38,959 bases of DNA from Euzebyales bacterium (lineage in GTDB: Bacteria; Actinomycetota; Nitriliruptoria; Euzebyales; JAHELV01). Positions 3,880 through 38,959 of this stretch are shown in pieces. The notes under the pieces were generated by a model. It was given only the letters and a program-made list of their open reading frames with translations, had not been told where the DNA came from and searched no databases. How positions within the stretch are numbered: position 1 is the first letter of the stretch; each line of letters begins with the position of its first letter. Location: assembly GCA_036374135.1 (NCBI GenBank), contig DASUUK010000097.1, forward strand, positions 1-38,959, written 5' to 3'. Made by a program: the position numbers and the translations under genes.

Positions 3880-3943
3880 CCTCGCGTCCCTCGCGTCAGG
3901 CCTGCGCCGCGACGCGTGTGCCGGCGTTGCTACCATCACCAGC

Positions 3944-6577: not shown

Positions 6578-6619
6578 CCGTCGGCCACGGCGCGTCCGAG
6601 GTCGGGTGCGGCCCAGCGG

Positions 6620-7546
6620 TCAGGTGGCGTCCCAGGGGACGTCCGGCGGCGCGTCGCCGTCGCCGACCGGCGGCACGCCGTCGCCGGCCGGGCACAGTGC
6701 GGTGCACATGCGCGCGTGCAGACCGGTCATGCGGTACGTGCGCAACACCGTCAGGATCTGTTCCGGTGTGGCCGCGCGGCGGGTCGCGTCCAGATCGACC
6801 GGCAGCCCTCGGTCCAACGTCATCAGCTCGACGTTGCGCCGGAACACCGACGTCGGCGACGCCAGATCGTCGATTACGAGCTGGCCGAGCTCCGGTCCCA
6901 GCACACTGCGACAGCCCAGCGGGTCGGCGACCGCCTCCTCGACCGTGGGGTACATCCGCAGCAGATCCGCCGCCTTCTTGGCGCCGATGCCGGCGATGCC
7001 GGGCAGGTTGTCCGACGCGTCCCCACGTATGGCGGCCAGCTGCACGTACTGCTGCGGCGCGATGCGGTACCGACGGCGGAAGTCGCGGGCGGTCACGGTG
7101 CGGATCGGCCGGTGCCCGCCCCGCACCTGCAGCACGCTCGTCCGCCCGCTGACCAGTGCCAGCACGTCACGGTCGGGCGACGCCACGACGCAGCGCCAGG
7201 CGGCGTCCTCCGCCGTCGCGGCGGCCGAGGCGACGACGTCGTCGGCCTCGCAGCCCGGCGCGACGATGACGTGCGCACCCATGTCGGCGGCGATCTGTGG
7301 CAACTCGTCGAGCGAGACGTCCAGCTCGGCGTGCTTGTCCGGGCGCTGTCCCTTGTAGTCGGGGTACGTCGCCCGACGACGCGAGTGCTCGCGGCAGTCG
7401 AAGCCGACCACCAACCCGTCGTAGGTCACCTGGTCGCACACGACCGACAGCAACGCGAAGAAGCCGTACCGAGCGCCGCCCGCAGTGCCGCCGTACGCGT
7501 GGAACGCCCGGTGCACCAGGGCGTTGCCGTCCACGGCGAGCAGCAT
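6620..7546 (-). CDS. Stand-alone 5'-3' exonuclease (PolA N-terminal/FEN-like)
   Basis: A 308-residue protein equivalent to the 5' nuclease domain of DNA polymerase I without the polymerase. Diagnostic motifs appear in order: AVDGNALVHRAFHA at the extreme N-terminus (first metal Asp), DYKGQRPD, the acidic EADDVVASAA, PDRDVLALV, and the helix-3-turn-helix RGDASDNLPGIAGIGAKKA that grips the DNA substrate. The expected role is flap or RNA-primer removal in replication and repair. I start at ATG 7546 because the strong Shine-Dalgarno GAGGTGA lies 8 bases upstream and the domain begins there. A GTG at 7675 overlapping the msrB stop would add 43 low-complexity residues across a GC hairpin. The gene is convergent with the cyclase/ATPase gene, 42 bp away. 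Confidence 0.93.
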   Translation of the reverse strand: MLLAVDGNALVHRAFHAYGGTAGGARYGFFALLSVVCDQVTYDGLVVGFDCREHSRRRATYPDYKGQRPDKHAELDVSLDELPQIAADMGAHVIVAPGCEADDVVASAAATAEDAAWRCVVASPDRDVLALVSGRTSVLQVRGGHRPIRTVTARDFRRRYRIAPQQYVQLAAIRGDASDNLPGIAGIGAKKAADLLRMYPTVEEAVADPLGCRSVLGPELGQLVIDDLASPTSVFRRNVELMTLDRGLPVDLDATRRAATPEQILTVLRTYRMTGLHARMCTALCPAGDGVPPVGDGDAPPDVPWDAT

Positions 7547-7585
7547 CGGCTCCGTCACCTCGCCGTCGCGCACCTCGGCGGTGGC

Positions 7586-7602
7586 GGGGGGCGCCGCCCC
7601 CC
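7586..7602 (-). terminator. GC hairpin between msrB and the exonuclease gene
   Basis: GGGGGGC and GCCCCCC form a perfect 7-bp inverted repeat with a 3-base loop, 70 bases after the msrB stop and 40 bases before the preferred exonuclease start. There is no T-run, as is common in very GC-rich genomes. It could end or attenuate msrB transcription, and its presence argues that this stretch is not coding. Confidence 0.4.
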
Positions 7603-7671
7603 TGGGCAGTGGGTCGACGAGCGCCGCGGCCGCCGGTGCGAGATCGGCGTCGAAGAGGGCGAGCGACTCGG

Positions 7672-8079
7672 TCACGACGTCGGTTCGGTCTCCTCGAGGT
7701 CCAGCGCGACCGAGTTGACGCAGTAGCGCTGACCGGTGGGCCGGGGGCCGTCGTCGAACACGTGGCCGAGGTGCCCTCCGCACGTGCCGCACACGACCTC
7801 CGTGCGCACCATGCCGAGGCTGCGATCGGTCTCGGTGCGTACGGCATCCGGTGACACGGGTTCGTAGAAGCTCGGCCAGCCGGTTCCCGAGTCGTACTTG
7901 GTGTCGGAGGTGAACAGTGGTGCGTTGCAGGCCGCGCAGCGGTACGTGCCGTCGGCCTTGACGTCCCAGTACGCGCCGCTGAACGGCCGCTCCGTTCCCT
8001 TGCCGCGCAGTATCCGGTACTGCTCGGGCGTGAGCTGCGCGCGCCACTCCTCGTCGGTGCGTTCGATCTGCTCGGCCAT
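7672..8079 (-). CDS. msrB: Peptide methionine-(R)-S-oxide reductase MsrB
   Basis: A 135-residue MsrB that reduces methionine-R-sulfoxide in proteins, normally with thioredoxin. Two CxxC pairs (CAAC and CGTC) form the structural zinc site. The substrate-binding segment GTGWPSF and the catalytic-Cys motif RYCVNS are present, and LGHVFDDGP is conserved. The length is typical of a single-domain MsrB. ATG 8079 is chosen because GGGAG stands five bases upstream; an ATG 36 bases further up would add an unconserved leader. The gene lies upstream of the 5'-3' exonuclease on the same strand. Oxidative-stress function is inferred from the family only. Confidence 0.96.
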
Positions 8080-8134
8080 CGTCTCCCTTTCGGTGCGGTC
8101 CGGTCCCGCGCTCACGTCGCGAGGGCCAGCGGGC

Positions 8135-8755
8135 TCACGCCGCTGCCACGACGGTAACCGGCAGGTTGAACCGGCGCTCCATCTTGGTGTGCAGGTCCGC
8201 CTCGAGCCAGCCCGATTCGGCGCGCGGCAGCGTGGCCAGGAGGATCTCGTCTGCCTTGAAGCGCTTGAGCGCGTCGGACGTGGCCCGCAGCGGATCGGCG
8301 TCCCCGACCGACCCGTCGACGGTCAGCCCGACGTCGCGCAGCCGCCCCAGCGCCTCGTTGAGCCGATATGTGGCCAGCGTCCGGCCGGGCAGATCACCCT
8401 CGGCGGGGTGAGCGACCTCACCGACCGTTTCGAACCATGCGTGCTCGCCCGCGACCGGCGTTGAGCGCACGGCGGGGACCACCAGGTGGTACTCCACGTC
8501 ACCGGACCGCCCGGTCATCGCCTCCTGCAGGCGCTGCGCGCGCAGGACGGCGTTGCCCACCACCAGCACCTTGCGCCGCCGCATCTGCGTGTCCTCGACG
8601 AAGTCGCTGTACAGCGGACGTTGCTGCTTGGCGCCCCCGTACCGGATGGGCGCGACGGACTGCGGGTCGACCATGTGCTCGGAGGTGAGGTGGTAGTTGA
8701 GCTCGGTCTCGTTGCGGAAGCGCAGTTCGCAGCGGGGGCATTGGTGGACGGACAT
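8135..8755 (-). CDS. C2H2 zinc finger fused to Usp-like domain
   Basis: A 206-residue protein with an unusual architecture. Residues 6-27 are a textbook C2H2 finger (C6-x2-C9-x12-H22-x4-H27, with Phe13 and Leu19 at the core positions). A short linker leads to a Rossmann-like domain (about 66-206) resembling universal-stress or permease-tail domains: [12 protein letters not shown], a Val-Gly-Asp-Ala-Asp-Pro step, [18 protein letters not shown] and a final NLPVTVV strand. No membrane segment is seen. The finger could bind nucleic acid or protein and the Usp-like part could sense nucleotides; both are guesses. ATG 8755 has GAAGGAGA upstream. The gene diverges from the GNAT gene and lies 55 bp upstream of msrB. 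Confidence 0.8.
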
Positions 8756-8867
8756 GCCGGTCGGTCTCCTTCGCTGAGCCGCGCCTTGGCGCGGCGTTCG
8801 CCCTCACGATAGCCAACCGGAACCAGAACTTGCGTTCGCGTCCACGGCAGCCCACACTCGGCCGTCG

Positions 8868-9668
8868 ATGGATGACGTCCAGATCGACGCCGTTGACGAC
8901 CCGGACTCGTGTCGGATCGCCGAGGACATCCAGCGTCGTGCATGGGGCATGTCCGACCGTGGGGTGGTGCCCGCCGAACAGATCCGCGCCGCCGTGCACA
9001 ACGGCGGTCTGCTGCTCATCGCACGCGGCGACGGCGAGCCCATCGGCTTCTGCTACGGGTTCGTCGGCCTCGACGGTCACACGCCCATCCTGTGCTCGCA
9101 CATGCTCGCCGTCGTCCCCGGCATGCAGTCGCGCGGCATCGGTCAGGCGCTCAAGATGGCCCAGCGGCGCCACGCCGCCGCGCGCGGCTTCGAGCGCATC
9201 ACGTGGACGTTCGATCCGCTGCAGGCGCGCAATGCGTACCTGAACCTGCACCGGCTCGGCGCCGTCGCACGCCACTACCACGTCGATCACTACGGTCCCA
9301 TGGACGACGCGATCAACGCCGGGCTGCCGACCGACCGCCTGCTCGCGGAGTGGTGGGTCGACAGCGACCGCGCAGTGCCCGCCGAGGTTCCGGACGGACC
9401 GTGGGCGCTGTCGTGCGTGCCGGGAGCCGATGGCGCACCGCGTCCCGGTCCGGTCATCCCGGACGCCCTGGACGGCGACGCGGCGCTGGTGGCCGTGCCG
9501 GCCGACTTCGATCGCCTCCGACGCGTTGATCCGGCGGCGGGCCCGGCCTGGCGCAGCGCCCTGCGCGCCGCGCTGTCTGCCGCCTTCCGGACGGGGATGG
9601 TCGCCGTCGACCTGGCCCGCGACGTCACCGACGACTGCCACGCGTACGTGCTGCGGGTGCAGCCATGA
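8868..9668 (+). CDS. GNAT acyltransferase, probable N-succinyltransferase of D-amino acid conversion
   Basis: A 266-residue GNAT protein of the COG3375 type. The acetyl-CoA-binding region is visible as HMLAVVPGMQSRGIGQALK (about residues 81-99), preceded by the beta-strand IGFCYGF and followed by ITWTFDPLQARNAYLN, a hallmark of this subgroup. The gene overlaps the next one by 4 bases (ATGA) and starts a three-gene run with an enolase-superfamily racemase and an M20 deacylase. In Geobacillus and related bacteria the same trio converts D- to L-amino acids, with the GNAT enzyme N-succinylating D-amino acids. The substrate is inferred from this context. The start ATG 8868 has no clear Shine-Dalgarno; an ATG at 8872 is out of frame. 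Confidence 0.88.
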   Translation: MDDVQIDAVDDPDSCRIAEDIQRRAWGMSDRGVVPAEQIRAAVHNGGLLLIARGDGEPIGFCYGFVGLDGHTPILCSHMLAVVPGMQSRGIGQALKMAQRRHAAARGFERITWTFDPLQARNAYLNLHRLGAVARHYHVDHYGPMDDAINAGLPTDRLLAEWWVDSDRAVPAEVPDGPWALSCVPGADGAPRPGPVIPDALDGDAALVAVPADFDRLRRVDPAAGPAWRSALRAALSAAFRTGMVAVDLARDVTDDCHAYVLRVQP

Positions 9669-10807
9669 CCGCCCTGCGCGTCGACCGTGTGGAGCTCGTG
9701 TTCCTGACGCTGCCACTGCGCCACCCGTTCGTCACGAGCTTCGGACCGCAGCTCGAGCGCGACGTCGTGCTCGTACGGGTGCGCGCCGACGGCGTGGACG
9801 GGTGGGGTGAACTGGTCGCCGGCCGTGATCCCGTGTACAGCGAGGAGACGGTCGCCGGTGCGGTGACGGTCATGCGCGACCACCTGCTGCCGCGGATCCT
9901 CGGTCACACGGTCGACGATCCGCGGACGGTCGGTGACCGCTGGGCGAAGGTCCGCGGCAACCCCATGGCCCGGGCCGCCATCGAGATGGCCGTGTGGGAC
10001 ACCTGGTCGGCCGCGACCGGTCGATCGCTCGCCGCGGTGCTCGGCGGCACGAGGGCGGCCGTGCCGGCCGGTGTCAGCATCGGCATCGCCGACTCGACCG
10101 CGGCGCTGCTGGACCGCGTGGCGTCCTTCGTGGACCAGGGCTACGCCCGCATCAAGCTCAAGATCGCGCCGGGCACCGACGTCGAGCGCGTTGCCGCGGT
10201 GCGCGAGCGGTTCGCCGACGTGGCGCTGATGGCCGACGCGAACTCCGCGTACACGCTGGACGACGCCGACCACCTCCGGCGGCTCGACGCGTTCGACCTC
10301 ACGATGATCGAACAGCCGCTGGCCCACGACGACATCATCGACCACGCCAGCCTCGCGCCGCGGCTGCGGACGCCGTTGTGCCTGGACGAGTCGATCCGGT
10401 CGACCGCCGACGCACGGCGCGCGGCGTCGATCGGCGCCTGCGCGATCATCAACTGCAAGCCGGGCAGGCTCGGTGGCCTGGCCGAGTCCCTGGCGCTCCA
10501 CGACTGGGCGGTCACGGAGGGGATGCCGCTGTGGGTCGGCGGCATGCTCGAGACGGGCATCGGCCGCCTCCACAACATCGCCCTGGCCAGCCTCCCCGGG
10601 TTCACACTGCCCGGCGACACGTCCGCCAGCGACCGCTACTGGGAGCGCGACATCATCGAGCCGGCCGTCACGCTCGCACCGGACGGCACCGTCGAGGTGC
10701 CCGATGCGGCGGGCGTCGATGCGGTGGTCGACCACGACCGCCTCGACGCGGTGGTCGTCCACCGCGAGGTGTTCGACGCCACCGACGGCGTGGTGGCTGG
10801 CCGATGA
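9665..10807 (+). CDS. N-succinylamino acid racemase / o-succinylbenzoate synthase family
   Basis: A 380-residue member of the enolase superfamily (muconate-lactonizing subgroup, MenC/NSAR branch). All expected residues are present: K164-x-K166 (RIKLKI), metal ligands D191 (ADAN), E216 (IEQPL) and D241 (LDES), and the general base K265 (NCKPGRLGG), followed by GGMLETGIG. The numbering is almost identical to characterised NSAR proteins. The branch includes both o-succinylbenzoate synthase of menaquinone synthesis and N-succinylamino acid racemase, often with both activities. No other men gene is nearby, whereas a GNAT gene and an M20 hydrolase overlap this gene by 4 bases on each side, so racemase is the likelier main role. 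Start ATG 9665 is fixed by the ATGA overlap. Confidence 0.92.
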   Translation: MTALRVDRVELVFLTLPLRHPFVTSFGPQLERDVVLVRVRADGVDGWGELVAGRDPVYSEETVAGAVTVMRDHLLPRILGHTVDDPRTVGDRWAKVRGNPMARAAIEMAVWDTWSAATGRSLAAVLGGTRAAVPAGVSIGIADSTAALLDRVASFVDQGYARIKLKIAPGTDVERVAAVRERFADVALMADANSAYTLDDADHLRRLDAFDLTMIEQPLAHDDIIDHASLAPRLRTPLCLDESIRSTADARRAASIGACAIINCKPGRLGGLAESLALHDWAVTEGMPLWVGGMLETGIGRLHNIALASLPGFTLPGDTSASDRYWERDIIEPAVTLAPDGTVEVPDAAGVDAVVDHDRLDAVVVHREVFDATDGVVAGR

Positions 10808-15842: not shown

Positions 15843-16460
15843 TCAGCGGGGGCGCCCCGACAGCACGAGCTCGCCGTCGACGGTCGACAGGTCGTCGAGG
15901 GCCAGCTGATCGTCGGCAACGCTTGCGAGGCTGCGCAGTTCGTGCGTCAGGTCGGCGCGGGTGTCGTCCGAGAGTGGAAGCGGTCCCATCGACAGGTCGC
16001 GCACGGTGGGCCGCAGACGGGCGTCGACGATCTCGAGGTCCACAACCGCCGTCACCGGCAGCGGCGGCTCGTCGAGGCGCCCGTCGACGACCAGCCGACC
16101 GCCCACATCGTCGGGTGGCTCGGCCACGTCGACCGTGACATCGCTGATCTGCTGCGACGGCGCCTGCGCCAGCGCATCCTCGACCAGACCGGTGGTCTCC
16201 ACCTCGTCGAGCGTCACGGTCACCGAGCCGTCGTCGTTGGCGACCGCATCACCGAGCAGGTCGTCGAGCTCCGCCGGCACCGTCCGCGTCGCTGATTCGG
16301 AAGGCGCGCCGCCGGCTGTCCGTCCCCCGTCGGACCCATCCGCGCCGAGGCCCTCGAGCCCGCCGCCGTCGATCACGAACGCGCCGGCGAGCACGAGCAG
16401 CGCGACGATGACCAACGCCGGGCCACGGCGGGGCCGTCGGTAGGGTGAGCGGGCGGCCAT
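15843..16460 (-). CDS. Membrane-anchored extracytoplasmic protein of unknown function
   Basis: A 205-residue protein with a very basic N-terminus, one transmembrane segment (PALVIVALLVLAGAFVI, about residues 15-31), a Gly/Ser/Asp-rich linker and a soluble domain made mainly of beta-strands (VTVTLDEVETTGLVEDAL, GRLVVDGRL, ADLTHELRSL, GELVLSG). The pattern resembles the DUF2993/LmeA-like lipid-binding proteins of actinobacteria, but the match is by eye only. Its ATG overlaps the stop of the ADP-ribosylglycohydrolase gene (TGATG, one base), so the two are probably co-translated. It ends before a hairpin and faces the carboxylate-amine ligase gene. Confidence 0.75.
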   Translation of the reverse strand: MAARSPYRRPRRGPALVIVALLVLAGAFVIDGGGLEGLGADGSDGGRTAGGAPSESATRTVPAELDDLLGDAVANDDGSVTVTLDEVETTGLVEDALAQAPSQQISDVTVDVAEPPDDVGGRLVVDGRLDEPPLPVTAVVDLEIVDARLRPTVRDLSMGPLPLSDDTRADLTHELRSLASVADDQLALDDLSTVDGELVLSGRPR

Positions 16461-17428
16461 CAGCCGTCGCCTACGTCCGCGAGCGCAACGGCCGACAAAC
16501 GCCCGGCCGCCTCGATGACCACGTCGTGACCTTCCAGCACCGCGGTCCACGCTGGCGGCATGGCGCACGCCCCGCCTGCGGCGCCGCGGACCGCTGCCGC
16601 CATCGACGCGATCGTATCGGTGTCGCCCCCGAACGCGACGGCGCGCGTCACGCACTCCTCCACGTCGGCGCTCACAGCGGCGCACCACAGGGCGGCGGGC
16701 ACGGAGCGGTGTGCCGTGGGCGCAGTGCCAAGGAGGGCTGCGACCGACGCGGGGGCCGTGTCCCGGTCCACCTGTGCGGCAGCGGCGAGCCCCTCGCCCA
16801 GCTCCGTGGTGTCGGTGGGTAGCCGCGCCAGATCTGACAGTGCGAAGCGCCGGTCGGCAGCCGCCAGCGCCACGGCGTGCGCGACGACCACCGCGCCGTC
16901 GATGCCGACCGGGTGCGCGTGGGTGACCTGAGCCGACCGCACCGCGGCAGCCGTGAGCTCCGCCGGTCGGCCCGCCCAGAGCAACCCGACCGGTGCGACC
17001 CGCATCGCCGCACCGTTGCCGAACGACCCGTCCGGGAATACGGCGGTCGCGGCGGACTCGACATCGTGCCCGTGCCGCCACAGCTCGACGAGCCGGCGCA
17101 TGCCTGGTCCGTACCCGCGGTGCGGCTCGTACCGCGCGAGCATCCTGCGTGCCAGCAGGCGCGGCTCGACCCGTGCGTCGTCATCGACCAGGTGATCGAC
17201 GAGCGCGAGCGTCAACTGGGTGTCGTCGGTGTAGGCCAGCAGGGGGCGGAACCCGGCTTCGCCGGCGACTGGTCCGCGACGATCACCGCGGGCGAGCGCC
17301 CGACTGACACGGCGGCGGCCACCGGCCAGCCCGACCGATCGACCGCCCTCATACGGCGCGCCGATGCAGTCGCCAACCAGCGCCCCGAGCAGCGCGCCCA
17401 TGACCGCGTCGCTGCCAGCTCCCGCCAT
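16460..17428 (-). CDS. ADP-ribosylglycohydrolase family protein
   Basis: A 322-residue member of the ARH/DraG family, which hydrolyses ADP-ribose from proteins or small molecules using two Mg ions. Seen in order: GALVGDCIGAPYEG (residues 12-25), YTDDTQLT (metal ligands T-D-D), FGNGAAMRVAPVGL, THAHPVGIDGA, and FGGDTDTIASM near the C-terminus with the second metal-binding DxDT set. The Asp-Asp pair and the GDTDT motif are intact, so it should be active. The substrate cannot be told. It lies 17 bp downstream of pspA and its stop overlaps the start of the membrane-anchored gene. A basic patch RGGRRR-like between the first motifs is of no clear meaning. Confidence 0.94.
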   Translation of the reverse strand: MAGAGSDAVMGALLGALVGDCIGAPYEGGRSVGLAGGRRRVSRALARGDRRGPVAGEAGFRPLLAYTDDTQLTLALVDHLVDDDARVEPRLLARRMLARYEPHRGYGPGMRRLVELWRHGHDVESAATAVFPDGSFGNGAAMRVAPVGLLWAGRPAELTAAAVRSAQVTHAHPVGIDGAVVVAHAVALAAADRRFALSDLARLPTDTTELGEGLAAAAQVDRDTAPASVAALLGTAPTAHRSVPAALWCAAVSADVEECVTRAVAFGGDTDTIASMAAAVRGAAGGACAMPPAWTAVLEGHDVVIEAAGRLSAVALADVGDG

Positions 17429-17445
17429 TGACTGCGCGTCCTGTG

Positions 17446-18282
17446 TCAGCTGGTGGCGTCACCGCTGACATCGCTCGACGCCTCCCCCGCGCCGTCAGAC
17501 GCGGCGGCGCTGCCGCTCGCGGCCGTGGAACCCGCCGCGGTCTCCGTCTCCGCCGTCTCGGCGCTCGGCGTCTCGATGCCGAGCTTGGAGCGGATCTCCG
17601 ACAGACGGGCTGCCGCCTGGCTGGCGGCGGCGGCCTGCTCGACCTCGAGCATGCGCCCCTGCACCGATTCACGCTCCAGCTCGGTCGTGCCCTGCGCACG
17701 CGCCAGCCGCGTCTCGATCTTGCTGCGGACCTCGTCGAGCGTCGGAACGTCCTGGCCGACCTCTGCGTTCATGGTCTCCATGGCGCGGTTCATCTGCTCG
17801 GCCATCTTCGCCTGGTCGAGCTGGCTGAGCAGCTTCTGGCGCTCGGCGACCTTGGCCTGCAGCTGCTGCGCATTCTGCGCAACAGCGGCCTTGGCCTGCT
17901 CGGTGGACTGCGTGGCCCGCAGCACCATCGCCTGGAGCGTGTCGACCTCCTGCTCCTTGGCGATCAGCTGGTTGGCGAAGGCCTCGGCCGTCTGGGTGAG
18001 CTCCACGACGCGCTTGTCGTCACCGCTCTGCTCGGCCTCGGACGCCATCAGCACCGCCTGCTGGGTGTTGCGGTTGAGCTTCTCGAGGTCCTCGAGCGCA
18101 CGGTCGAGGTCCATCTGCGACTTCTTCTGGTTGGCGATGACGCTGGCGGCCGTCTCGCGCAGCCGGCGGTGCTGGCTGCGAGCCTCGGCGATGGCCTGTT
18201 CGATCTGGATCTTGGGATCGGCGACCTCTTCGAACTTTCCCGTCAGCAACGCCTTCAGGTAGTTCCAGAACCGTGAGAACAT
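17446..18282 (-). CDS. pspA: Phage shock protein A / IM30 family
   Basis: A 278-residue PspA homologue, a peripheral membrane ESCRT-III-like protein that stabilises the inner membrane under stress. The N-terminal amphipathic helix (MFSRFWNYLKALLTG) is followed by the conserved PKIQIEQAIAEA segment and long coiled coils to about residue 230. The last 45 residues are an Ala/Ser/Thr/Glu low-complexity tail absent from classical PspA. AAGGAAG lies about 10 bases upstream of ATG 18282. Upstream lies a gene for an unknown membrane protein on the same strand; downstream is the ADP-ribosylglycohydrolase gene. Confidence 0.95.
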   Translation of the reverse strand: MFSRFWNYLKALLTGKFEEVADPKIQIEQAIAEARSQHRRLRETAASVIANQKKSQMDLDRALEDLEKLNRNTQQAVLMASEAEQSGDDKRVVELTQTAEAFANQLIAKEQEVDTLQAMVLRATQSTEQAKAAVAQNAQQLQAKVAERQKLLSQLDQAKMAEQMNRAMETMNAEVGQDVPTLDEVRSKIETRLARAQGTTELERESVQGRMLEVEQAAAASQAAARLSEIRSKLGIETPSAETAETETAAGSTAASGSAAASDGAGEASSDVSGDATS

Positions 18283-19344: not shown

Positions 19345-19649
19345 TGCAGGCAGCGTAGCCAACGCGCCGGCACGTGACCGCACATGGCGGCGGTAACCCC
19401 GCCGTGTTGCCGGCGGCAGCGGCCCGAGGCCGACCCAACGTGATACGCGAACTACTCTTCGCTCGCGTCACGCCGGGCGATCCAGTACGCTGCTGCGAAC
19501 CGCTCGCCCTGCACATGCTGGTGATGTAGCGTCGGTCGCGATGCCGAGCCGCTGCGGGGCCGAGCCCAGGCCCGACGCCGCCACGGGTGTTCCAGGGGGT
19601 CACAGCACCGGTCAGTCACTGCAGGCTCGTCGATCACAGGTGTCAATGC

Positions 19650-21890
19650 ATGGCAGAGGTTGGTGTGTGGACCGTCCCGGGCTACGTCGTCCATGAGCGA
19701 CTGGACGCCGGGCTGGTCAGCGCCACCTACCTGGCCTCACGCGCCTCGGACGGCTACCCGGTCCTCCTGCAGGTCGTCTCCGAGGAGTTCTCCGATCCCG
19801 ACTCCGCCGACCAGTTCTTCACGACGCTCGAGCGGGTCGCTGAACTGGACCACCCGGTCATCCCCAAGGTCCGCGACATGGGCCAGGCCGACGGACTGCT
19901 GTACGCCATCACGAGCGCGACCGACGGCCGCCCCCTGGCCGTGGCGCTCGGCGAGGTCGACGCGCTCCCGCTCGACGACGCGTTGGCCGGGTGCACCGAG
20001 CTCGCCGATGGGCTGGACGCGATGGCGGCTGTCGGGCTCGTCCACGGTGCGCTGAGCCCGAAGACGATCTGGCTCAACGACCGCAGCCGCACGCCGTCCG
20101 GCCCGCGCATGTCACTGCACGGATTCGGCACGCTGCCGCTGCGCACGTCCGCCGTGCGCCAGACGAACGCGCCACCGCCCGCGGACCTGCTCTACACGGC
20201 GCCGGAGCAGGTGCATGGGACACCGGTCGACGAGCGCACGGACCAGTACGGGCTCGCGTGTGCCGCCGTGCACTGCCTGACCGGCCGCCCGCCGTTCGAT
20301 CGCGCGACCATCGGCGCGTTGTTCGACGCGCACGCCCACGATGACCCGTCGACGCAGCTGCTGCGTGATGCCGGCTGGCTGCCTCCCAAGGTGGCCGAAG
20401 GCCTGGCGCACGGGCTGTCGAAGGACCCCAGCGATCGGTTCGCCACGTGCACCGCGCTGACGACGGCCATCGGCGGTGTGTCCAGGCACTCGTGGAGCTG
20501 GATGCTCGACCGTGACGATACGGCGTCCGGTGCGAACGGCCCGCGCGACGACAGCGCCGCAGCGGCCGTGCGCGACGGAAGCCTGGGGGCCGCCGTGGCG
20601 GTCGGCGATCCGTCGACCGGCACGGCGCGGGCGGATGCGCCACGGCGCGGACCCGGATCGCAGCGACGTCGCCGCCGCGCGAGGCTCTGGCGGGGCGCCG
20701 CCGCCTTCGTGTTGCTCGTCGTCGCTGCCGCGGCTGCCGTCGTCGTCGGCCTACCGATGCTCACAGGCGGAGGCGAGTCGGGGCCGGGGATCACCTCGGC
20801 GGGACAACAGCTCGACGTCGACGCCCCCGAGGTCGCAGCGTCGTGGAACGAGTCGGTGGCGGCCGACACCATCACCGCGCTCGTGCCTGCCGACGAGCAG
20901 ATCATCGGCGTCTCGGGCGAAGCGGTGACCAGCGTCGATCAGGCGACGGGGCGCCCGGTGTGGAAGGCGTCCGTGAACGGCGAGGTCCGCGAACTGTCGG
21001 AGTTCGGGCCGATGGCGATCGTCCGGACCGACGATGGGTTCTACGGCCTCGACGTCATCGACGGTGACGTGGTCTGGGAGGCGTCGGCCGCCGATCTGCC
21101 CGCCATCGACACCTTCATCACGGCGCGCGGGCGCATGTTCGCCGCCGGCCGCGACGAGCAGGGACAGTTGCTGCTGCACGCCCTGGATCCCCAGTCGGGC
21201 GAACGTGGCTGGACGATCGAGACATCGACGACGGGTGCCGCCGCGAGCGCCGCCGGCGACGCTGCGGACGACCAGCCGGGTGACGCCAGCGAGGCTGACG
21301 CCACCACGCTGCTCGCGTTCGACGGGAGCACACAGGGACTGCCGTCGCTGTACGTGACCGACGGCGCGCGGCTCGAGGCGTTCGACGTCACGACCCGCGA
21401 GCTGCGCTGGGACGTCGACCTCGACGACCTGCAGCCGACGTCCATGATCGCGGTGGATGGCGCCGTGCTCGTCGTCGGCGCCAACGGCGACGTGTGCCGG
21501 TACGACGCGGACGACGGTCAGACCGGCTGGTCATCGTGCGCCCAACTCGAGCACGACGACGTCCCCGCGACCATCACGCAGGTCAGCGAGAGCCAGGTGA
21601 TCATCTGCAGCCCCAGCGAGATGGTGTCGATCGACTACGCGAGCGGCACACCGACGTGGCGGATCGTCTCGGAGGAGCCGCTGCGCCAGGCCATCACCAC
21701 GAACGGCACCGCCGCCTTCATGGCCACGGCTGACGGCACCGTGGCGGCGATCGCGCTCGACGACGGGACGACGCAGTGGCAGTCGGGGCCGTTCGACAGC
21801 GTCAGCGCGATGGCGGCGACCGACGAGGCCGTGTTCGTGACCACTGCCGGCGGACGGATGGCACGGCTGGAGGCGGCCGCAGAGACCTGA
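19650..21890 (+). CDS. Membrane pseudokinase with extracellular PQQ-type beta-propeller
   Basis: A 746-residue protein with Hanks-type kinase fold, one transmembrane helix (about 350-370) and a C-terminal PQQ-like propeller. The catalytic residues are replaced: the VAIK Lys is Q41 (VLLQVV), HRD is H132-G133-A134, the loop Asn is T139, and DFG is G158-F159-G160. Structural motifs APEQ (184-187) and DQYGLAC (198-204) are kept. The propeller repeats read DQATGRPVWK, DVIDGDVVWE, YASGTPTWR and ALDDGTTQW. The layout resembles AfsK- or PknD-like sensor kinases, but phosphotransfer is very unlikely. It may signal by binding. An Ala/Asp/Ser-rich insert interrupts the propeller near residue 535. The start ATG 19650 has ACAGG upstream. 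It is convergent with the AAA gene. Confidence 0.9.
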   Translation: MAEVGVWTVPGYVVHERLDAGLVSATYLASRASDGYPVLLQVVSEEFSDPDSADQFFTTLERVAELDHPVIPKVRDMGQADGLLYAITSATDGRPLAVALGEVDALPLDDALAGCTELADGLDAMAAVGLVHGALSPKTIWLNDRSRTPSGPRMSLHGFGTLPLRTSAVRQTNAPPPADLLYTAPEQVHGTPVDERTDQYGLACAAVHCLTGRPPFDRATIGALFDAHAHDDPSTQLLRDAGWLPPKVAEGLAHGLSKDPSDRFATCTALTTAIGGVSRHSWSWMLDRDDTASGANGPRDDSAAAAVRDGSLGAAVAVGDPSTGTARADAPRRGPGSQRRRRRARLWRGAAAFVLLVVAAAAAVVVGLPMLTGGGESGPGITSAGQQLDVDAPEVAASWNESVAADTITALVPADEQIIGVSGEAVTSVDQATGRPVWKASVNGEVRELSEFGPMAIVRTDDGFYGLDVIDGDVVWEASAADLPAIDTFITARGRMFAAGRDEQGQLLLHALDPQSGERGWTIETSTTGAAASAAGDAADDQPGDASEADATTLLAFDGSTQGLPSLYVTDGARLEAFDVTTRELRWDVDLDDLQPTSMIAVDGAVLVVGANGDVCRYDADDGQTGWSSCAQLEHDDVPATITQVSESQVIICSPSEMVSIDYASGTPTWRIVSEEPLRQAITTNGTAAFMATADGTVAAIALDDGTTQWQSGPFDSVSAMAATDEAVFVTTAGGRMARLEAAAET

Positions 21891-32604: not shown

Positions 32605-33330
32605 GTGGGCGCTGCGGCGATCCTGCTCGCCGGGGGCAGTGGCACCCGGATGCGGCGGGCCGACACCAAGGTCTTCGCGACCGTGGGCGGACGACCGCTG
32701 CTGCAGTGGTCCCTGAGGGCGTTCGCCGACTGTGAGGCGATCGACCGCGTCGTGCTGGTCATCCGCGACGAGGACCGCCCGCGCATCGACGCCCTGCTCC
32801 GCGACACCGGCCTCGCCGCCAGCGTGCGCACCGTGGTCGGGGGTGCGAACCGGCAGGCGAGCGAGCGCGCCGGGCTCGAGGCGATTGCCGGGGACATCGA
32901 CAGCGGCGCCGTCGACACCGTCGCCATCCATGACAGCGCCCGTCCCTTCGTCACCACGGGGCTCATCGGCCGCGTCGTTGCATCCGCACGTCGGGTGGGT
33001 GGCGCCGTGCCGGTCCTCGAGCTCGGCGACGGCGTCTACCGCGCGACGCCCGATGGGCGCCTCGTTCTCCAGGCGCGCGATCTGCACCGGGTCCAGACGC
33101 CGCAGGCGTTCCGGTCCCGGGCGCTGCTCGAGGCGTATCGGGCAGCGTCGCACCAGGGGTTCGCGGGTGTCGACACCGTGGAGACCGTCGCCCGCTACAC
33201 CGACCTGCAGATCGCCGCCGAGCCCGGCGACACCGACAACCTCAAGGTGACCTTCGCGGCCGATCTCGCAACCGCGGAACGCATCGCCGCCGAGCGCGAA
33301 CGGGGCGTCAGCCGCCACCCGGCGCGATGA
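32605..33330 (+). CDS. ispD: 2-C-methyl-D-erythritol 4-phosphate cytidylyltransferase (atypical arm)
   Basis: A 241-residue IspD of the MEP pathway, which makes CDP-ME from MEP and CTP. The nucleotide loop LLAGGSGTRMRRADTKVF keeps the catalytic Arg and Lys; HDSARPFV, RVQTPQAF and DTDNLKVT (active-site Lys) are intact. The region that usually reads PVxDTxK...VDR reads PVLELGDGVYRAT...LQARDL, so the residues equivalent to E. coli Thr140 and Arg157, which come from the neighbouring subunit, are missing. The start GTG 32605 has a strong GGAGGAC. It diverges from the IspD-like gene and overlaps the convergent pseudokinase gene by 23 bp at its end. Confidence 0.92.
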   Translation: MGAAAILLAGGSGTRMRRADTKVFATVGGRPLLQWSLRAFADCEAIDRVVLVIRDEDRPRIDALLRDTGLAASVRTVVGGANRQASERAGLEAIAGDIDSGAVDTVAIHDSARPFVTTGLIGRVVASARRVGGAVPVLELGDGVYRATPDGRLVLQARDLHRVQTPQAFRSRALLEAYRAASHQGFAGVDTVETVARYTDLQIAAEPGDTDNLKVTFAADLATAERIAAERERGVSRHPAR

Positions 33331-34396
33331 CCGCCATGAGCACCGGCGAGCTCGACGCGGCGGCGTCGGGCGAGCCGATCACATCGAGCTCGAGTGCCGC
33401 GAGAAGGCCGAGCACGACCAGCAGCAGAACGATCAGCACGATCCGCAACGTGCGCCGGGGAGCGGGTTCGAACTCGGCGACGTCGTCGGCCGCCGAGACG
33501 GCGACCGGACGCGCCGACGACACCTCGCGCGCCGGGCGCCGGCGACCGCACCGTCCGGCCTCGAGCAGCAGGGTCCGGCAGTTGTCGTACCGCTCTTCGG
33601 GATCCTTGGACAGCGCGCGGGCGAAGAGCGCGTCCCAGCGGTCGTCGAGATCCTGCCGCAGCTCGGTGATCGGCCGCGCCTGGCCGAACAGGTGCGCACC
33701 GAACAGATCGTTGTTGGTCTCACCCTGGTACGGCGTGGTCGCTGTCAGTGCGGTGTACAGGATGCAGGCCAGCGCGTACTGGTCCGATGCGGGACCCGCC
33801 GGCTGACCCTGCAGTTGCTCGGGAGCGACGAACAGCAGGTCGGGAGCCGCGGGGTCGTCCTCGACCCCCTGGAGCACCGGTCCCAGCAGATGGCTCGTCC
33901 CGAAGCCTGTCACGGCCGCGCTGGGTGGCACCCGGCTGCCCGGGCGACGTCTGATCCACACCGACGGCAGTCCGACAGTGCCGTGCACGATGCCATGGTG
34001 ATGGATCGCGTCGAGCGCCTCGGCCAACTGCCCACCCAGCCGCAGCGCGTCGTCGATGTCGAGCGGCGCCGCCTCCAGCAGCAGGTCGCCCAGAGACACC
34101 CCGTCCCGCCAGGTGGTCGCCGCGTACGGAGTGCCTCCGACGGTGCCCTGGTCGACGACGGTCAGCAGGTGCGGGTGCGCCACAGCGGACACGCGGCGGT
34201 TCACGTGCAGGAACCCCTTCACCGCACGTGCGTGCCCGGCAACCGCGTCGTCGACGACGCGGAGCGCCACCGGGGTGCCCACGTCGTCGATCGCCCGGTA
34301 GGTGGTGGTCGTCAGGTCGGACCCGACCACCGACTGCAGGGTGTACGTACCGAGCGACGTCGGTTCCGGCAGCGGCTGCTGTGGCACGGCGCTCAC
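33308..34396 (-). CDS. Membrane pseudokinase (short C-terminal tail)
   Basis: A 362-residue Hanks-type kinase homologue that lacks the catalytic residues: the VAIK Lys is R46 (VALRVV), HRD is H138-G139-T140, the loop Asn is S145, and DFG is G164-F165-G166. Structural motifs remain: APEQL (191-195), SDQYALAC (204-211) and the SKDPEERY-type helix. An Arg/Pro/Ser-rich linker leads to one transmembrane helix (RIVLIVLLLVVLGLLAALEL, about 315-335) and a short extracytoplasmic Ser/Ala tail. The start is GTG 34396, with GGAGGGGA six bases upstream. It lies 213 bp after the related pseudokinase gene and its end overlaps ispD by 23 bp. No ATP-dependent activity is expected; a docking role is inferred. 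Confidence 0.9.
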   Translation of the reverse strand: MSAVPQQPLPEPTSLGTYTLQSVVGSDLTTTTYRAIDDVGTPVALRVVDDAVAGHARAVKGFLHVNRRVSAVAHPHLLTVVDQGTVGGTPYAATTWRDGVSLGDLLLEAAPLDIDDALRLGGQLAEALDAIHHHGIVHGTVGLPSVWIRRRPGSRVPPSAAVTGFGTSHLLGPVLQGVEDDPAAPDLLFVAPEQLQGQPAGPASDQYALACILYTALTATTPYQGETNNDLFGAHLFGQARPITELRQDLDDRWDALFARALSKDPEERYDNCRTLLLEAGRCGRRRPAREVSSARPVAVSAADDVAEFEPAPRRTLRIVLIVLLLVVLGLLAALELDVIGSPDAAASSSPVLMAVIAPGGG

Positions 34397-34609
34397 GCGG
34401 TCCCCTCCGACCTCTCCGACCTCGGGGTGCAGCCGCGGGCACACGACGGGGACCGCCCGCCGAGGTCACGGCGTCGCCTCACGGACGTGTCCCCGTCGGG
34501 CGGCGCGACGGCGCTCATCCGCCGTACCGTTGTCACCCCGTCCACCGACCCTCCCTCAGGGTTGCATCCCTACGACCACCACGACCCGTTCCGCTCGTGG
34601 ACGTGGCGG

Positions 34610-36247
34610 TCATGACAACAGAACCCACACCACGACAGCTGTCACGACCATGACGACGAAGAACATCGCGACCAGCGCTCCCGAGGGGCGCCACACTTCC
34701 GACGGTTCGAGCTCGGGCCGGTCGCGGAGCACATCCGAGAGCAGTGGGACGTCGTCGTTGGCGCCCGTGGTGCCGGTCTTGACATCCCGCACGTCGGCCG
34801 ACCCTGGCCGTGCGCCGGATTCGTTCCCAGTTGTAGGGTACGTCATGTCAGGCGTGGACCGGACATGAGTCGAAGAGTTGTCATCACCTCGTGACGGGCT
34901 ACCCGTCCTTGCGGACATCAGACGCCGACCATTGGACAGGGCGTCGTCCGCGTCCGCCGGCTCGTCGCCACCGCTGCGAGCGGGCAGCGCGATGATCCGT
35001 TGCCCGTCCGCGGTGTAGCTGATCCCCGCGTCGTCGGCGGCGTCCGCCGGAGCCGACGCGGCGCGGGTGACGGGCAGAGCCGGTCCGTCCGCGTCGTACT
35101 CGCGGTCGTCGCCACCGGGCGACGTCGGCACGTCGTCAGCCGGGGGCGGGGACACCGACGGATCGGCCCCATCGGAGGCGGACGGCGGCCCCACCGACTG
35201 CGCCGCATCGTCAGCCGGCGGCGGCCACAGGTCGTCGTCCCGGCCGTCCGTTGCCGTCGGTGGTGGGTCGGTGTCGTGCCGGGAGCTCAACGAGGGGTCG
35301 CCAGCAGGCGCACCCGCCTCCGGCTCGACACCCTCGGCTGCTTCGAGATCGTGCACCCAGGGGTGCGCCACCGTCTCCCGGCGCCGCACGTCGGCGCGTC
35401 TCCGGTTCTCGGCGCTCCGCCTGGCGCGCTCCAGATCGGCGACGAGTTGTCCGCACGTCGCGTAGCGGTCACGCGGTTCCTTCGCCAGTGCCTTCGCGAT
35501 CGGGCCGCCGGCCAGAGAAGGGACGAGCGTCGGTTCGACGAACAGGTGTGCACCGAACAGGCCGCCGACGGAGTTGCGCACGAACGGCGGCGAACCGGTC
35601 ACGGCGTGGACGAACGCGCACGCCATGGCGTACTGGTCCGCCCAGGCCGTCAACGGCTGGCTGCGCAACTGCTCCGGTGCGACGTACTGGAGCTCGTCGA
35701 CGGAGCGCAACTGCCTGCGGTCGCGGCGCAGGCGCAGCTCGAGGAGCGCGCCGATCCCGAAGCCGGTCAGGTTGACCTGGGGTGGCACGCCATGGGCGGT
35801 CGGCACGATGCGCAATGTGGTGGGGTTGACCGCACCGTGATTCAGACTGGCGTGATGGCTGGCGTCGAGGACGTCCGCGACCTGGGAGAACAGCTCGAGT
35901 GCCGCGTCGATGTCCAACGGGCCCCGCTCATCGATGAACTCCCCGAGCGGCACGGTGTCCACCGACGACGCGACGAGATATCCCCGGCCGCGGTGCTCGC
36001 CGACCTCCTCGATCCGCGGGGCGTGCAGGTGCTCGAAGGTCAGCGCTGCGGCGGCCCTGCGCAGGAACCGCCGGTACAGCTCGCGGTCGTCGCCGCCCGT
36101 GGCGCACAGGTCAGCGGCGACGACCCGCAGCACGAGCAGACGATCGTCGCGGGGATCGACCGCCGTGTAGATCGTGCTGACGAGATCGCTCCTGATGGCG
36201 TCGCGCACGTTCAGACCTGCGAACGTCGTCCCCGTCAGCTCGCCCAT
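34610..36247 (-). CDS. Tail-anchored membrane pseudokinase
   Basis: A 545-residue Hanks-type kinase homologue without catalytic residues: R41 replaces the VAIK Lys (LVLRVV), HRD is H137-G138-A139, the loop Asn is T144, and DFG is G162-F163-G164. APEQL (190-194) and ADQYAMAC (203-210) are intact. Residues about 310-515 form a long Asp/Pro/Ser/Thr-rich linker of low complexity, and the protein ends in one hydrophobic helix (ALVAMFFVVMVVTAVVVWVLL) with almost nothing after it, so it is C-tail anchored with the fold in the cytoplasm. The segment LFGAHLFVEP is shared with the neighbouring pseudokinase (LFGAHLFGQA). ATG 36247 has GGGGAG five bases upstream. It lies downstream of the mnh genes on the same strand. 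Confidence 0.9.
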   Translation of the reverse strand: MGELTGTTFAGLNVRDAIRSDLVSTIYTAVDPRDDRLLVLRVVAADLCATGGDDRELYRRFLRRAAAALTFEHLHAPRIEEVGEHRGRGYLVASSVDTVPLGEFIDERGPLDIDAALELFSQVADVLDASHHASLNHGAVNPTTLRIVPTAHGVPPQVNLTGFGIGALLELRLRRDRRQLRSVDELQYVAPEQLRSQPLTAWADQYAMACAFVHAVTGSPPFVRNSVGGLFGAHLFVEPTLVPSLAGGPIAKALAKEPRDRYATCGQLVADLERARRSAENRRRADVRRRETVAHPWVHDLEAAEGVEPEAGAPAGDPSLSSRHDTDPPPTATDGRDDDLWPPPADDAAQSVGPPSASDGADPSVSPPPADDVPTSPGGDDREYDADGPALPVTRAASAPADAADDAGISYTADGQRIIALPARSGGDEPADADDALSNGRRLMSARTGSPSRGDDNSSTHVRSTPDMTYPTTGNESGARPGSADVRDVKTGTTGANDDVPLLSDVLRDRPELEPSEVWRPSGALVAMFFVVMVVTAVVVWVLLS

Positions 36248-36352: not shown

Positions 36353-36715
36353 TCAGCCGGCCGCGCCGTAGCGGTTGGCGCGGTCGGAGCGGCCGAGCTC
36401 GTCGAGGATCGTCGAGGAGGCCATCTCGATGCCCGACTTGTACGCGGCCCGCCCGACCATGTGCGCGGCCACCGGTGCGGTCAGGAACTGCAGGACCACC
36501 ACCAGAAGCAGCTTCACCACCGAGCCCTGCACGGGCACCGCGATGCCGACCGCCACCGCGATGCAGAGCATCCCGAGTGTCGCGGGCTTCGTGGCCGCAT
36601 GCATCCGGCAGAACAGGTCCGGAAAGCGATGCAGCCCGACCGCGGCGATCAACGCGAGCAGGCAACCGGCCAGCAGCAGGATGCCCACCACGATGTCGAT
36701 CAGGATCGCAAGCAT
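36353..36715 (-). CDS. mnhG: Mnh/Mrp Na+/H+ antiporter subunit G
   Basis: A 120-residue MnhG/MrpG subunit of the multi-protein cation/proton antiporter. Three hydrophobic segments are seen (IDIVVGILLLAGCLLALIAAVGL, LGMLCIAVAVGIAV, VVKLLLVVVLQFLTAPVAAHMVG) with the conserved LHRFPDLFCRMHAATKPATLG between the first two. The C-terminal cytoplasmic tail is short. It starts 2 bp after the mnhF stop and is last in the visible leftward mnhD-E-F-G order. The complex works with other subunits not all present here. Confidence 0.95.
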   Translation of the reverse strand: MLAILIDIVVGILLLAGCLLALIAAVGLHRFPDLFCRMHAATKPATLGMLCIAVAVGIAVPVQGSVVKLLLVVVLQFLTAPVAAHMVGRAAYKSGIEMASSTILDELGRSDRANRYGAAG

Positions 36716-36717
36716 GC

Positions 36718-36981
36718 TCAGATCCCCCTGCGTTCGATGAACCGGGCGACCGTGATCGTGCTGACGAAGCCCACCAGCGAGACCACGACGAGCACGTCGA
36801 GGAACACGCCCGTGTCCCGCAGCACCGAGTACACGGCGATCCCCATCACGCCGATGAGCAACAGCAGGTCGAGCGCCACGATGCGCTCGGCGACGCTCGC
36901 TCCACGCCGGATCACGCGCGCCAGCGCCAGACCACCTGCTGCGAGCAGGATCGTCAGGCACAGCCCCAACAGGTACGTCAC
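36718..36981 (-). CDS. mnhF: Mnh/Mrp Na+/H+ antiporter subunit F
   Basis: An 87-residue MnhF/MrpF subunit with three hydrophobic helices (LLGLCLTILLAAGGLALARVI, IVALDLLLLIGVMGIAVYS, VLVVVSLVGFVSTITVARFI). The conserved ERIVALDLL segment is a family mark. ATG 36981 overlaps the mnhE stop by 4 bases, so translation is probably coupled. Normal length. Confidence 0.95.
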   Translation of the reverse strand: MTYLLGLCLTILLAAGGLALARVIRRGASVAERIVALDLLLLIGVMGIAVYSVLRDTGVFLDVLVVVSLVGFVSTITVARFIERRGI

Positions 36982-37613
36982 TGCGCTTCCTCTCCGCCGG
37001 CGTGAGGACGGTCGCCATCGGTCGACGGGCGGAGGCCCTCCTCCAACTCCGCCAGCGTCCGCGCCTGCACCGCCTGCGCGTTCCTACCCGCGAACGCATC
37101 GACTGCCAGCACCTCGAGCTCACAGATGTCCTCGCGCACACCGTCCGCGTCTGCGAGGTCGAGCGTGTGGACGTAGAGCACGGCCACATCGTCGCGTCGC
37201 TCGGTTTCGAGCGTCAGTGTGCCCGGCGTCAGCGTGATGCTGTTGGCCACCAGGGTGACGACGGCGTCCGATGCGTGGTGCAGCGGCATCGCCAGGATGC
37301 CGGGATTGATGGTGTCCGGACGCAGGACCGCCTTGATCACCTGCCAGTTGGCCACGACGAGTTGCATCGCGAACGTGCGCAGGTAGCGCAGCGCGGCTGC
37401 CGGGTGGACGTTGCGCACGGGACGTGGCTTCACCCGTCCGGCGAACGCCAGCACCGCGACGGCCACAGCTGCACCGCCGAGGATGTTGGCGATCGACAGC
37501 GTGCCCCACAGCGCGATCCACATGATGATCAGCGCGACCAGCATCGGCCATCGCCGCCCGGTCGACGTGTCACCCGCCCGCCGGTCGCGCACCCCGTTGC
37601 GCCGCCCACTCAT
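36978..37613 (-). CDS. mnhE: Mnh/Mrp Na+/H+ antiporter subunit E
   Basis: A 211-residue MnhE/MrpE. Two N-terminal membrane helices (PMLVALIIMWIALWGTLS, ILGGAAVAVAVLAFA) are followed by the conserved soluble domain: FAMQLVVANWQVIKAVLRP, INPGILAMPLH, VANSITLTPGTLTLE and LYVHTLDL. An Arg-rich, roughly 20-residue N-terminal extension precedes the first helix, and the C-terminal tail of about 50 residues is acidic and longer than usual. A later ATG before PMLVALI is possible. A 9-bp inverted repeat lies in the 106-bp gap separating it from mnhD. Confidence 0.94.
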   Translation of the reverse strand: MSGRRNGVRDRRAGDTSTGRRWPMLVALIIMWIALWGTLSIANILGGAAVAVAVLAFAGRVKPRPVRNVHPAAALRYLRTFAMQLVVANWQVIKAVLRPDTINPGILAMPLHHASDAVVTLVANSITLTPGTLTLETERRDDVAVLYVHTLDLADADGVREDICELEVLAVDAFAGRNAQAVQARTLAELEEGLRPSTDGDRPHAGGEEAQ

Positions 37614-37638
37614 GACGTGTGCCTACCGCTGCCGCTCC

Positions 37639-37666
37639 TTGAGGCACGCACCCATGTGTGCCTCAA
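37639..37666. other. 9-bp perfect inverted repeat between mnhD and mnhE
   Basis: TTGAGGCAC and GTGCCTCAA are perfect 9-bp arms around a 10-base spacer, 25 bases upstream of the mnhE start. In the transcript the hairpin could act in attenuation or mRNA processing; in DNA it could be an operator. Confidence 0.6.
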
Positions 37667-37719
37667 CGCGACGGTGTCAGACCTCTCGAGGCAGTGGACG
37701 CGACCGTTGCTTCGAACAC

Positions 37720-38959
<1,240 letters not shown>

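Follow-up and report, generated by a model that had tools for sequence, protein, structure and literature searches.

Why should a bacterium keep, side by side, two membrane proteins folded as Hanks-type protein kinases when every catalytic motif of the fold has been replaced in both? The question is raised by genes A and B in a stretch of 38,959 nucleotides from a Euzebyales bacterium (GenBank assembly GCA_036374135.1, contig DASUUK010000097.1), which was analysed over its whole length and is called here the window. An original prediction, made from the letters of the DNA, had read the two genes as neighbouring pseudokinases. Both are real, and the span it gave misses a third, C, on the opposite strand. 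The answer that we favour, with moderate confidence and on what sequences can tell, is that all three belong to a receptor-type pseudokinase clade that would have lost catalysis a single time in the ancestor of a Nitriliruptorales lineage, and whose members would now be non-catalytic docking platforms at the membrane, putatively scaffolds or sensors.

We must first establish that the loss of catalysis is real. The reading frames of A and B are not there by chance, since both exceed the Pfam Pkinase (PF00069) cut-off of 31.7 bits, and the fold matches as well: structure prediction gave a confident kinase domain for A (AlphaFold model, mean pLDDT 86, the domain mostly above 95), the best matches of which in the PDB are PknB, PknE, PknI and PknA, with TM(target) about 0.8. 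The fold of B is assigned by profile, that of C, as that of A, by model also. By the Pfam profile alignment, each replacement falls into the genuine column of its motif, be it VAIK, HRD, the catalytic loop or DFG, exactly as had been read (VAIK lysine to arginine, HRD to HG[T/A], asparagine to serine or threonine, DFG to GFG). A shifted triad is thereby ruled out: realignment found no intact Lys/Asp/Asp set elsewhere in the domain. The beta3 lysine, the HRD aspartate, the catalytic-loop asparagine and the DFG aspartate, each kept in 82-84 of 84 canonical rows, are all replaced in A, B and C, which are thus not active Hanks kinases and count as pseudokinases under a definition that asks for at least one of beta3 Lys, HRD Asp and DFG Asp to be replaced (PMC12599244). 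A and B have lost, in addition, the alphaC glutamate, the catalytic-loop lysine, the second glycine of the glycine-rich loop (G-loop) and the P+1-loop threonine. The residues that keep the fold (APE Glu, alphaF Asp, C-lobe Arg) are intact. Both proteins also carry APEQL, DQYA[LM]AC (DQYALAC in A, DQYAMAC in B), LFGAHLF and a C-terminal membrane helix, in agreement with the original prediction. The HGTVGLPS of A is the same in its four orthologues, apart from a final residue that is S or T. GFG is less constant; it holds for A and B in the window and is not fixed in the orthologues of either (Table).

Are these copies members of one family? A and B are 34% identical over 280 aligned columns. 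The genome holds 16 Pfam-significant kinase domains, seven of which are pseudokinases (A, B and C in the window; D, E, F and H on other contigs), while the remainder are mostly canonical. Seven of sixteen is no record, because pseudokinases are cited as making up as much as 67% of some bacterial kinomes (PMC12599244). Orthologues of A, B and C are present in all three congeners (G001, G002 and G003, metagenome-assembled genomes of Nitriliruptorales), and most other paralogues have theirs in two or three; the catalytic losses are always the same, and no orthologue with full catalytic motifs was found in these congeners. Together with those of the congeners, the family reaches 26 members. All 26 have lost the HRD aspartate, and H alone keeps that of DFG.

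Sampling covered 30 genomes of the order, 66 of the class and 396 in a sample of the phylum, the best six candidates being scored in each phylum genome. With a search profile built from 25 domains, full-length family members within the genus scored 249-364 bits; the best score outside it was 227 bits in the order and 243 bits elsewhere in the phylum sample. The top kinases read outside the genus were canonical, with HRD and DFG, bar a few odd rows (L155, L169, L115, L184). So far, the family has been seen in one small actinobacterial lineage only, with about seven mostly membrane-bound members. In a maximum-likelihood tree of 84 domains, for which the columns of the G-loop, beta3, the catalytic loop and DFG had been removed, the 26 pseudokinases gathered on one branch (support 100/99), which appeared in all of 200 bootstrap trees. 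In an earlier, quicker tree that kept the long-branch rows the clade was recovered too, less well supported (87) and next to a Chloroflexota kinase. A separate loss for each paralogue is unsupported, as the clade persists without the catalytic columns, and the simplest reading of the sequences is one loss of catalysis before the paralogues duplicated. Selection has left its mark too. Ratios of non-synonymous to synonymous substitution (dN/dS, NG86) within orthologue groups are 0.21-0.42 for A, 0.30-0.39 for B and 0.33-0.53 for C, against 0.14-0.20 for a set of active kinase orthologues in the same genomes; these values are rough, dS being moderately high and codon bias strong, and they still exclude free decay. 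A, B and C are not pseudogenes, because their dN/dS is well under 1. The proposal of a stable family rather than separately decaying kinases is thus borne out by the losses shared among orthologues, the single clade, purifying selection and synteny kept in four of four genomes.

The signature HG[AT]/GFG, suggested as a means to find orthologues, fared less well: orthologues with such losses do exist, but the pattern is not specific to the family. As a family mark it was rejected, for HG[EA], with or without GFG, is also found in distant actinomycete pseudokinases of genome G232 (L243:871-2961 (+), HGELGPSQ and GFG; L248:830-2965 (+), HGALDPDT). They match the family profile weakly, with 62 and 41 bits, and are apparently of separate origin.

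Table. Positions in the window of the three pseudokinase genes, their main elements and the adjoining antiporter genes
Feature	Positions	Strand	Evidence and remarks
Pseudokinase A (P0001), open reading frame	33308..34444	minus	378 aa from GTG 34444; PF00069 53.8 bits
A: Arg62 at beta3 (VAIK) Lys position	34259..34261	minus	sequence and column check; local VALR
A: HGTVGLPS replacing HRDxKPxN	33962..33985	minus	sequence, profile columns
A: GFG replacing DFG	33899..33907	minus	sequence, profile columns; AFG in three orthologues
A: LFGAHLF, helix G	33686..33706	minus	model helix 244-253; family-specific constraint
A: transmembrane helix near C-terminus, then ~24-residue outer tail	33383..33457	minus	hydropathy; model helix 330-354
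Pseudokinase B (P0002), open reading frame	34610..36247	minus	545 aa, C-tail anchored; PF00069 36.8 bits
B: Arg41 at beta3 Lys position	36125..36127	minus	sequence and columns; local VLR
B: HGAVNPTT replacing HRDxKPxN	35816..35839	minus	sequence, profile columns
B: GFG replacing DFG	35756..35764	minus	sequence, profile columns; GHG in two orthologues
B: LFGAHLF, helix G	35540..35560	minus	sequence, family constraint
B: C-terminal tail anchor	34613..34675	minus	sequence, hydropathy
Pseudokinase C (P0003)	19587..21890	plus	767 aa; HGALSPKT, GFG, beta3 Gln; structure model
C: transmembrane helix	about 20667-20747	plus	
C: extracytoplasmic BamB/PQQ_2-like beta-propeller	20838..21869	plus	PF13360 80.3 bits; Foldseek top matches: BamB
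Mrp/Mnh antiporter genes D, E, F, G	36353..38958	minus	directly upstream of B; Pfam, gene-order search

What, then, has been selected in a domain freed from catalysis? Several positions have become constrained in the family. An aspartate in the G-loop is present in 22 of 26 members and in none of the 84 canonical kinases, and an arginine takes the beta3 lysine position in 20 of 26. Groups A, B, D, E, F and H carry both, and group C neither. An aspartate of the P+1 loop stands at 77%, a helix-G phenylalanine at 85% and a helix-G glycine at 81% (0% in canonical kinases). Also fixed in the family, and not in canonical kinases, are Val and Ser after the G-loop aspartate, HG[AT], T or S for the catalytic asparagine, GFG or AFG with two leucines behind it, and the Leu-Phe-Gly that starts helix G. 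Remodelling has also affected the DFG+ and hinge segments.

These residues, together with the plan of the proteins, suggest how the family may have arisen and may work. Five paralogue groups (C-G) share the plan of C, namely pseudokinase, transmembrane helix and outer PQQ_2 propeller; A and B have no propeller. The ancestor would have been a receptor kinase of the PknB/AfsK kind, carrying a BamB-like propeller on the outer side of the membrane. After catalysis was lost, once, the family would have expanded to at least seven paralogues, five groups retaining the propeller as sensor and A and B presumably losing it. B would have been left with a long flexible linker by which the domain hangs from its tail anchor. 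Its transmembrane helix consists of the final ~21 residues, after an acidic, low-complexity linker of ~240 residues, and this tail anchoring is conserved, because all four B orthologues end in such a helix by hydropathy. The domain would transfer no phosphate. Its nucleotide cleft is probably shut by the replaced residues, the G-loop aspartate, Asp43 in A, lying over the beta3 arginine in a putative salt bridge. The face of the C-lobe formed by the P+1/APE region and helix G, with its LFGAHLF, may dock partners of a single kind common to the family, most likely an active Hanks kinase of the genome or the substrates of such kinases. The proteins would act as membrane-held scaffolds or decoys, those with a propeller linking docking to a signal from outside. 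A more specific version, which we put forward only tentatively, has the receptor kinases turned as a whole into a non-catalytic receptor network, the cleft plugged by the Asp/Arg pair, where the forms with sensors and the sensorless A and B would share one active kinase, competing for it or clustering it through LFGAHLF.

Several observations weigh against this account. Group G has the G-loop aspartate with Gln or Leu facing it at the beta3 arginine position. Member H retains the DFG aspartate and shows no transmembrane helix, and the alphaC glutamate is still there in a few members. Conservation of helix G could be structural. Paralogues D-F are scattered beside unrelated housekeeping genes. 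Finally, some pseudokinases, such as SelO and SidJ, bind ATP or perform other chemistry, and sequence does not exclude the same here. H itself (L003:1314-2450 (+), contig C68 of the same genome) reads LTDFGL, with HGA for HRD and arginine for the beta3 lysine; its branch is long, and no orthologue was seen in the congeners.

Seven families of bacterial pseudokinases have been described (O'Boyle et al. 2025, PMC12599244). ActPs1 is the one that fits best, compared by description, through its phylum, its triple loss and its PQQ_2 domain: it is actinobacterial, all three catalytic residues are replaced as here, and many members end in a PQQ_2 domain like groups C-G (PMC12599244). A and B, without PQQ_2, depart from it, and some 60% of ActPs1 lack helix G, which is present here (residues 244-253 in A, 242-251 in the model of C) and is the most characteristic segment. 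This does not settle the matter, as the helix is kept in about 40% of ActPs1. Actinobacterial pseudokinases with PQQ domains were already known. A search for ActPs1-type sequences in the actinomycete genomes G232 and G164 met PQQ_2-bearing kinases that are mostly canonical. Active kinases with PQQ_2 occur in actinomycete genomes (L231, L232 and L234-L236). AfsK/PknD-like receptor kinases combine a kinase fold with a following beta-propeller, as groups C-G do, but keep HRDLKPSN and DFG. ActPs2 differs by its HRD aspartate changed to Asn, its DFG deletion and the long stretches inserted behind beta3 and within the activation loop; here the aspartate is Ala or Thr, G/A-F-G is present and there are no such insertions. 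DYD and DLHK keep the HRD and/or the DFG motif, unlike this family.

MviN (ActPs3), also an actinobacterial membrane pseudokinase and a model for phosphorylation-dependent docking of FhaA, has VALT, Lsidhpsr and Y-- motifs, a deletion in the activation loop and, in M. tuberculosis, fusion to MviN (PMC12599244), none of which is found here. Kinship is rejected on these motifs, and MviN stands as a precedent for a possible mechanism. With EssB/YukC it is a precedent for scaffolding by bacterial pseudokinases (PMC12599244); EssB/YukC is likewise a membrane scaffold, but it is part of the type VIIb secretion system of Firmicutes. The tail anchor of B and its acidic linker were noted in the original prediction; the anchoring, which it called rare for bacterial kinases, has a precedent in YabT, an active Hanks kinase without sensor and with a C-terminal transmembrane anchor (PMC6333020). 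Bacterial pseudokinase families are catalogued, yet hardly any is known to have a role. What the present family adds is a compact, lineage-limited set living with about eight active kinases per cell, revealing which parts of the fold's surface selection still maintains without catalysis. It offers a natural comparison of one domain with and without a sensor, with a self-plugged cleft and helix-G docking as predictions.

Other explanations must be weighed against that of docking platforms. It is possible, though we think it rather unlikely, that the Mrp Na+/H+ antiporter, whose genes lie upstream, is under the control of A and B, which would adjust its assembly or activity beside the complex in the membrane, where both proteins reside. 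Indeed, in each of the four genomes of the genus mnhG is the gene immediately before B, with a gap of ~105 bp in the window and, as called, of about 30-120 bp in the other three; for the 19 further Nitriliruptorales genomes with mnhG, a search of 1.5 kb around it met no kinase-like gene. This idea rests on adjacency, however: in G003 radA separates B from A, the gene for IspD is an equally close neighbour, and the sensor-bearing paralogues sit elsewhere. As these other paralogues adjoin unrelated genes, context names no common partner. A promoter and terminator scan found none.

A and B might also be atypical enzymes or nucleotide sensors on a kinase fold, in the manner of SelO and SidJ or of the ATP binding proposed for DYD and ActPs2, which we regard as improbable. 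The beta3 arginine is shared with ActPs2 and DYD, where ATP binding was modelled (PMC12599244), the charged G-loop/beta3 pair could hold a ligand, and 12 of 13 columns of the catalytic loop are invariant among A orthologues. Yet in 25 of the 26 members neither the Asn nor the DFG position offers an acidic or amide metal ligand, the glycine of the G-loop has given way to another residue, and the remodelling of DFG+ and hinge noted above speaks against it too. That A and B are functionless, decaying copies is very improbable and was rejected: all catalytic motifs are gone and dN/dS exceeds that of active kinases, but in four species, whose domains are about 60-70% identical, the frames have stayed open, derived residues are common to the paralogues, and the shared losses, single clade, synteny and dN/dS already described tell the same story.

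Some minor observations complete the picture. GTG 34396 (362 aa), shortly past GGAGGGGA, is a likelier start of A than 34444. Near C, genes for PspA/IM30 and an ADP-ribosylglycohydrolase occupy 16460-18282 (-), and at 3773-6577 (+) a large protein matches NB-ARC/AAA and TPR, as a STAND-like ATPase. Among kinases met elsewhere, Gordonia polyisoprenivorans (L115) has an odd one at 5725-8412 (+), with LMRL, HGDLGPGE and LDVGT, then a canonical one at 8321-10507 (+), a possible pseudokinase-kinase pair. Kinases in two families of the order (L004:295-1875 (-), L259:1579-3015 (+)) keep HRDVKPxN intact with DPS in place of DFG, apparently a separate conserved variant. In G232, a weak kinase-like match falls in a protein that combines EAD1 with a Macro domain of the ThsA type (L254:321-2249 (+), Thoeris-like), probably the product of a defence gene.

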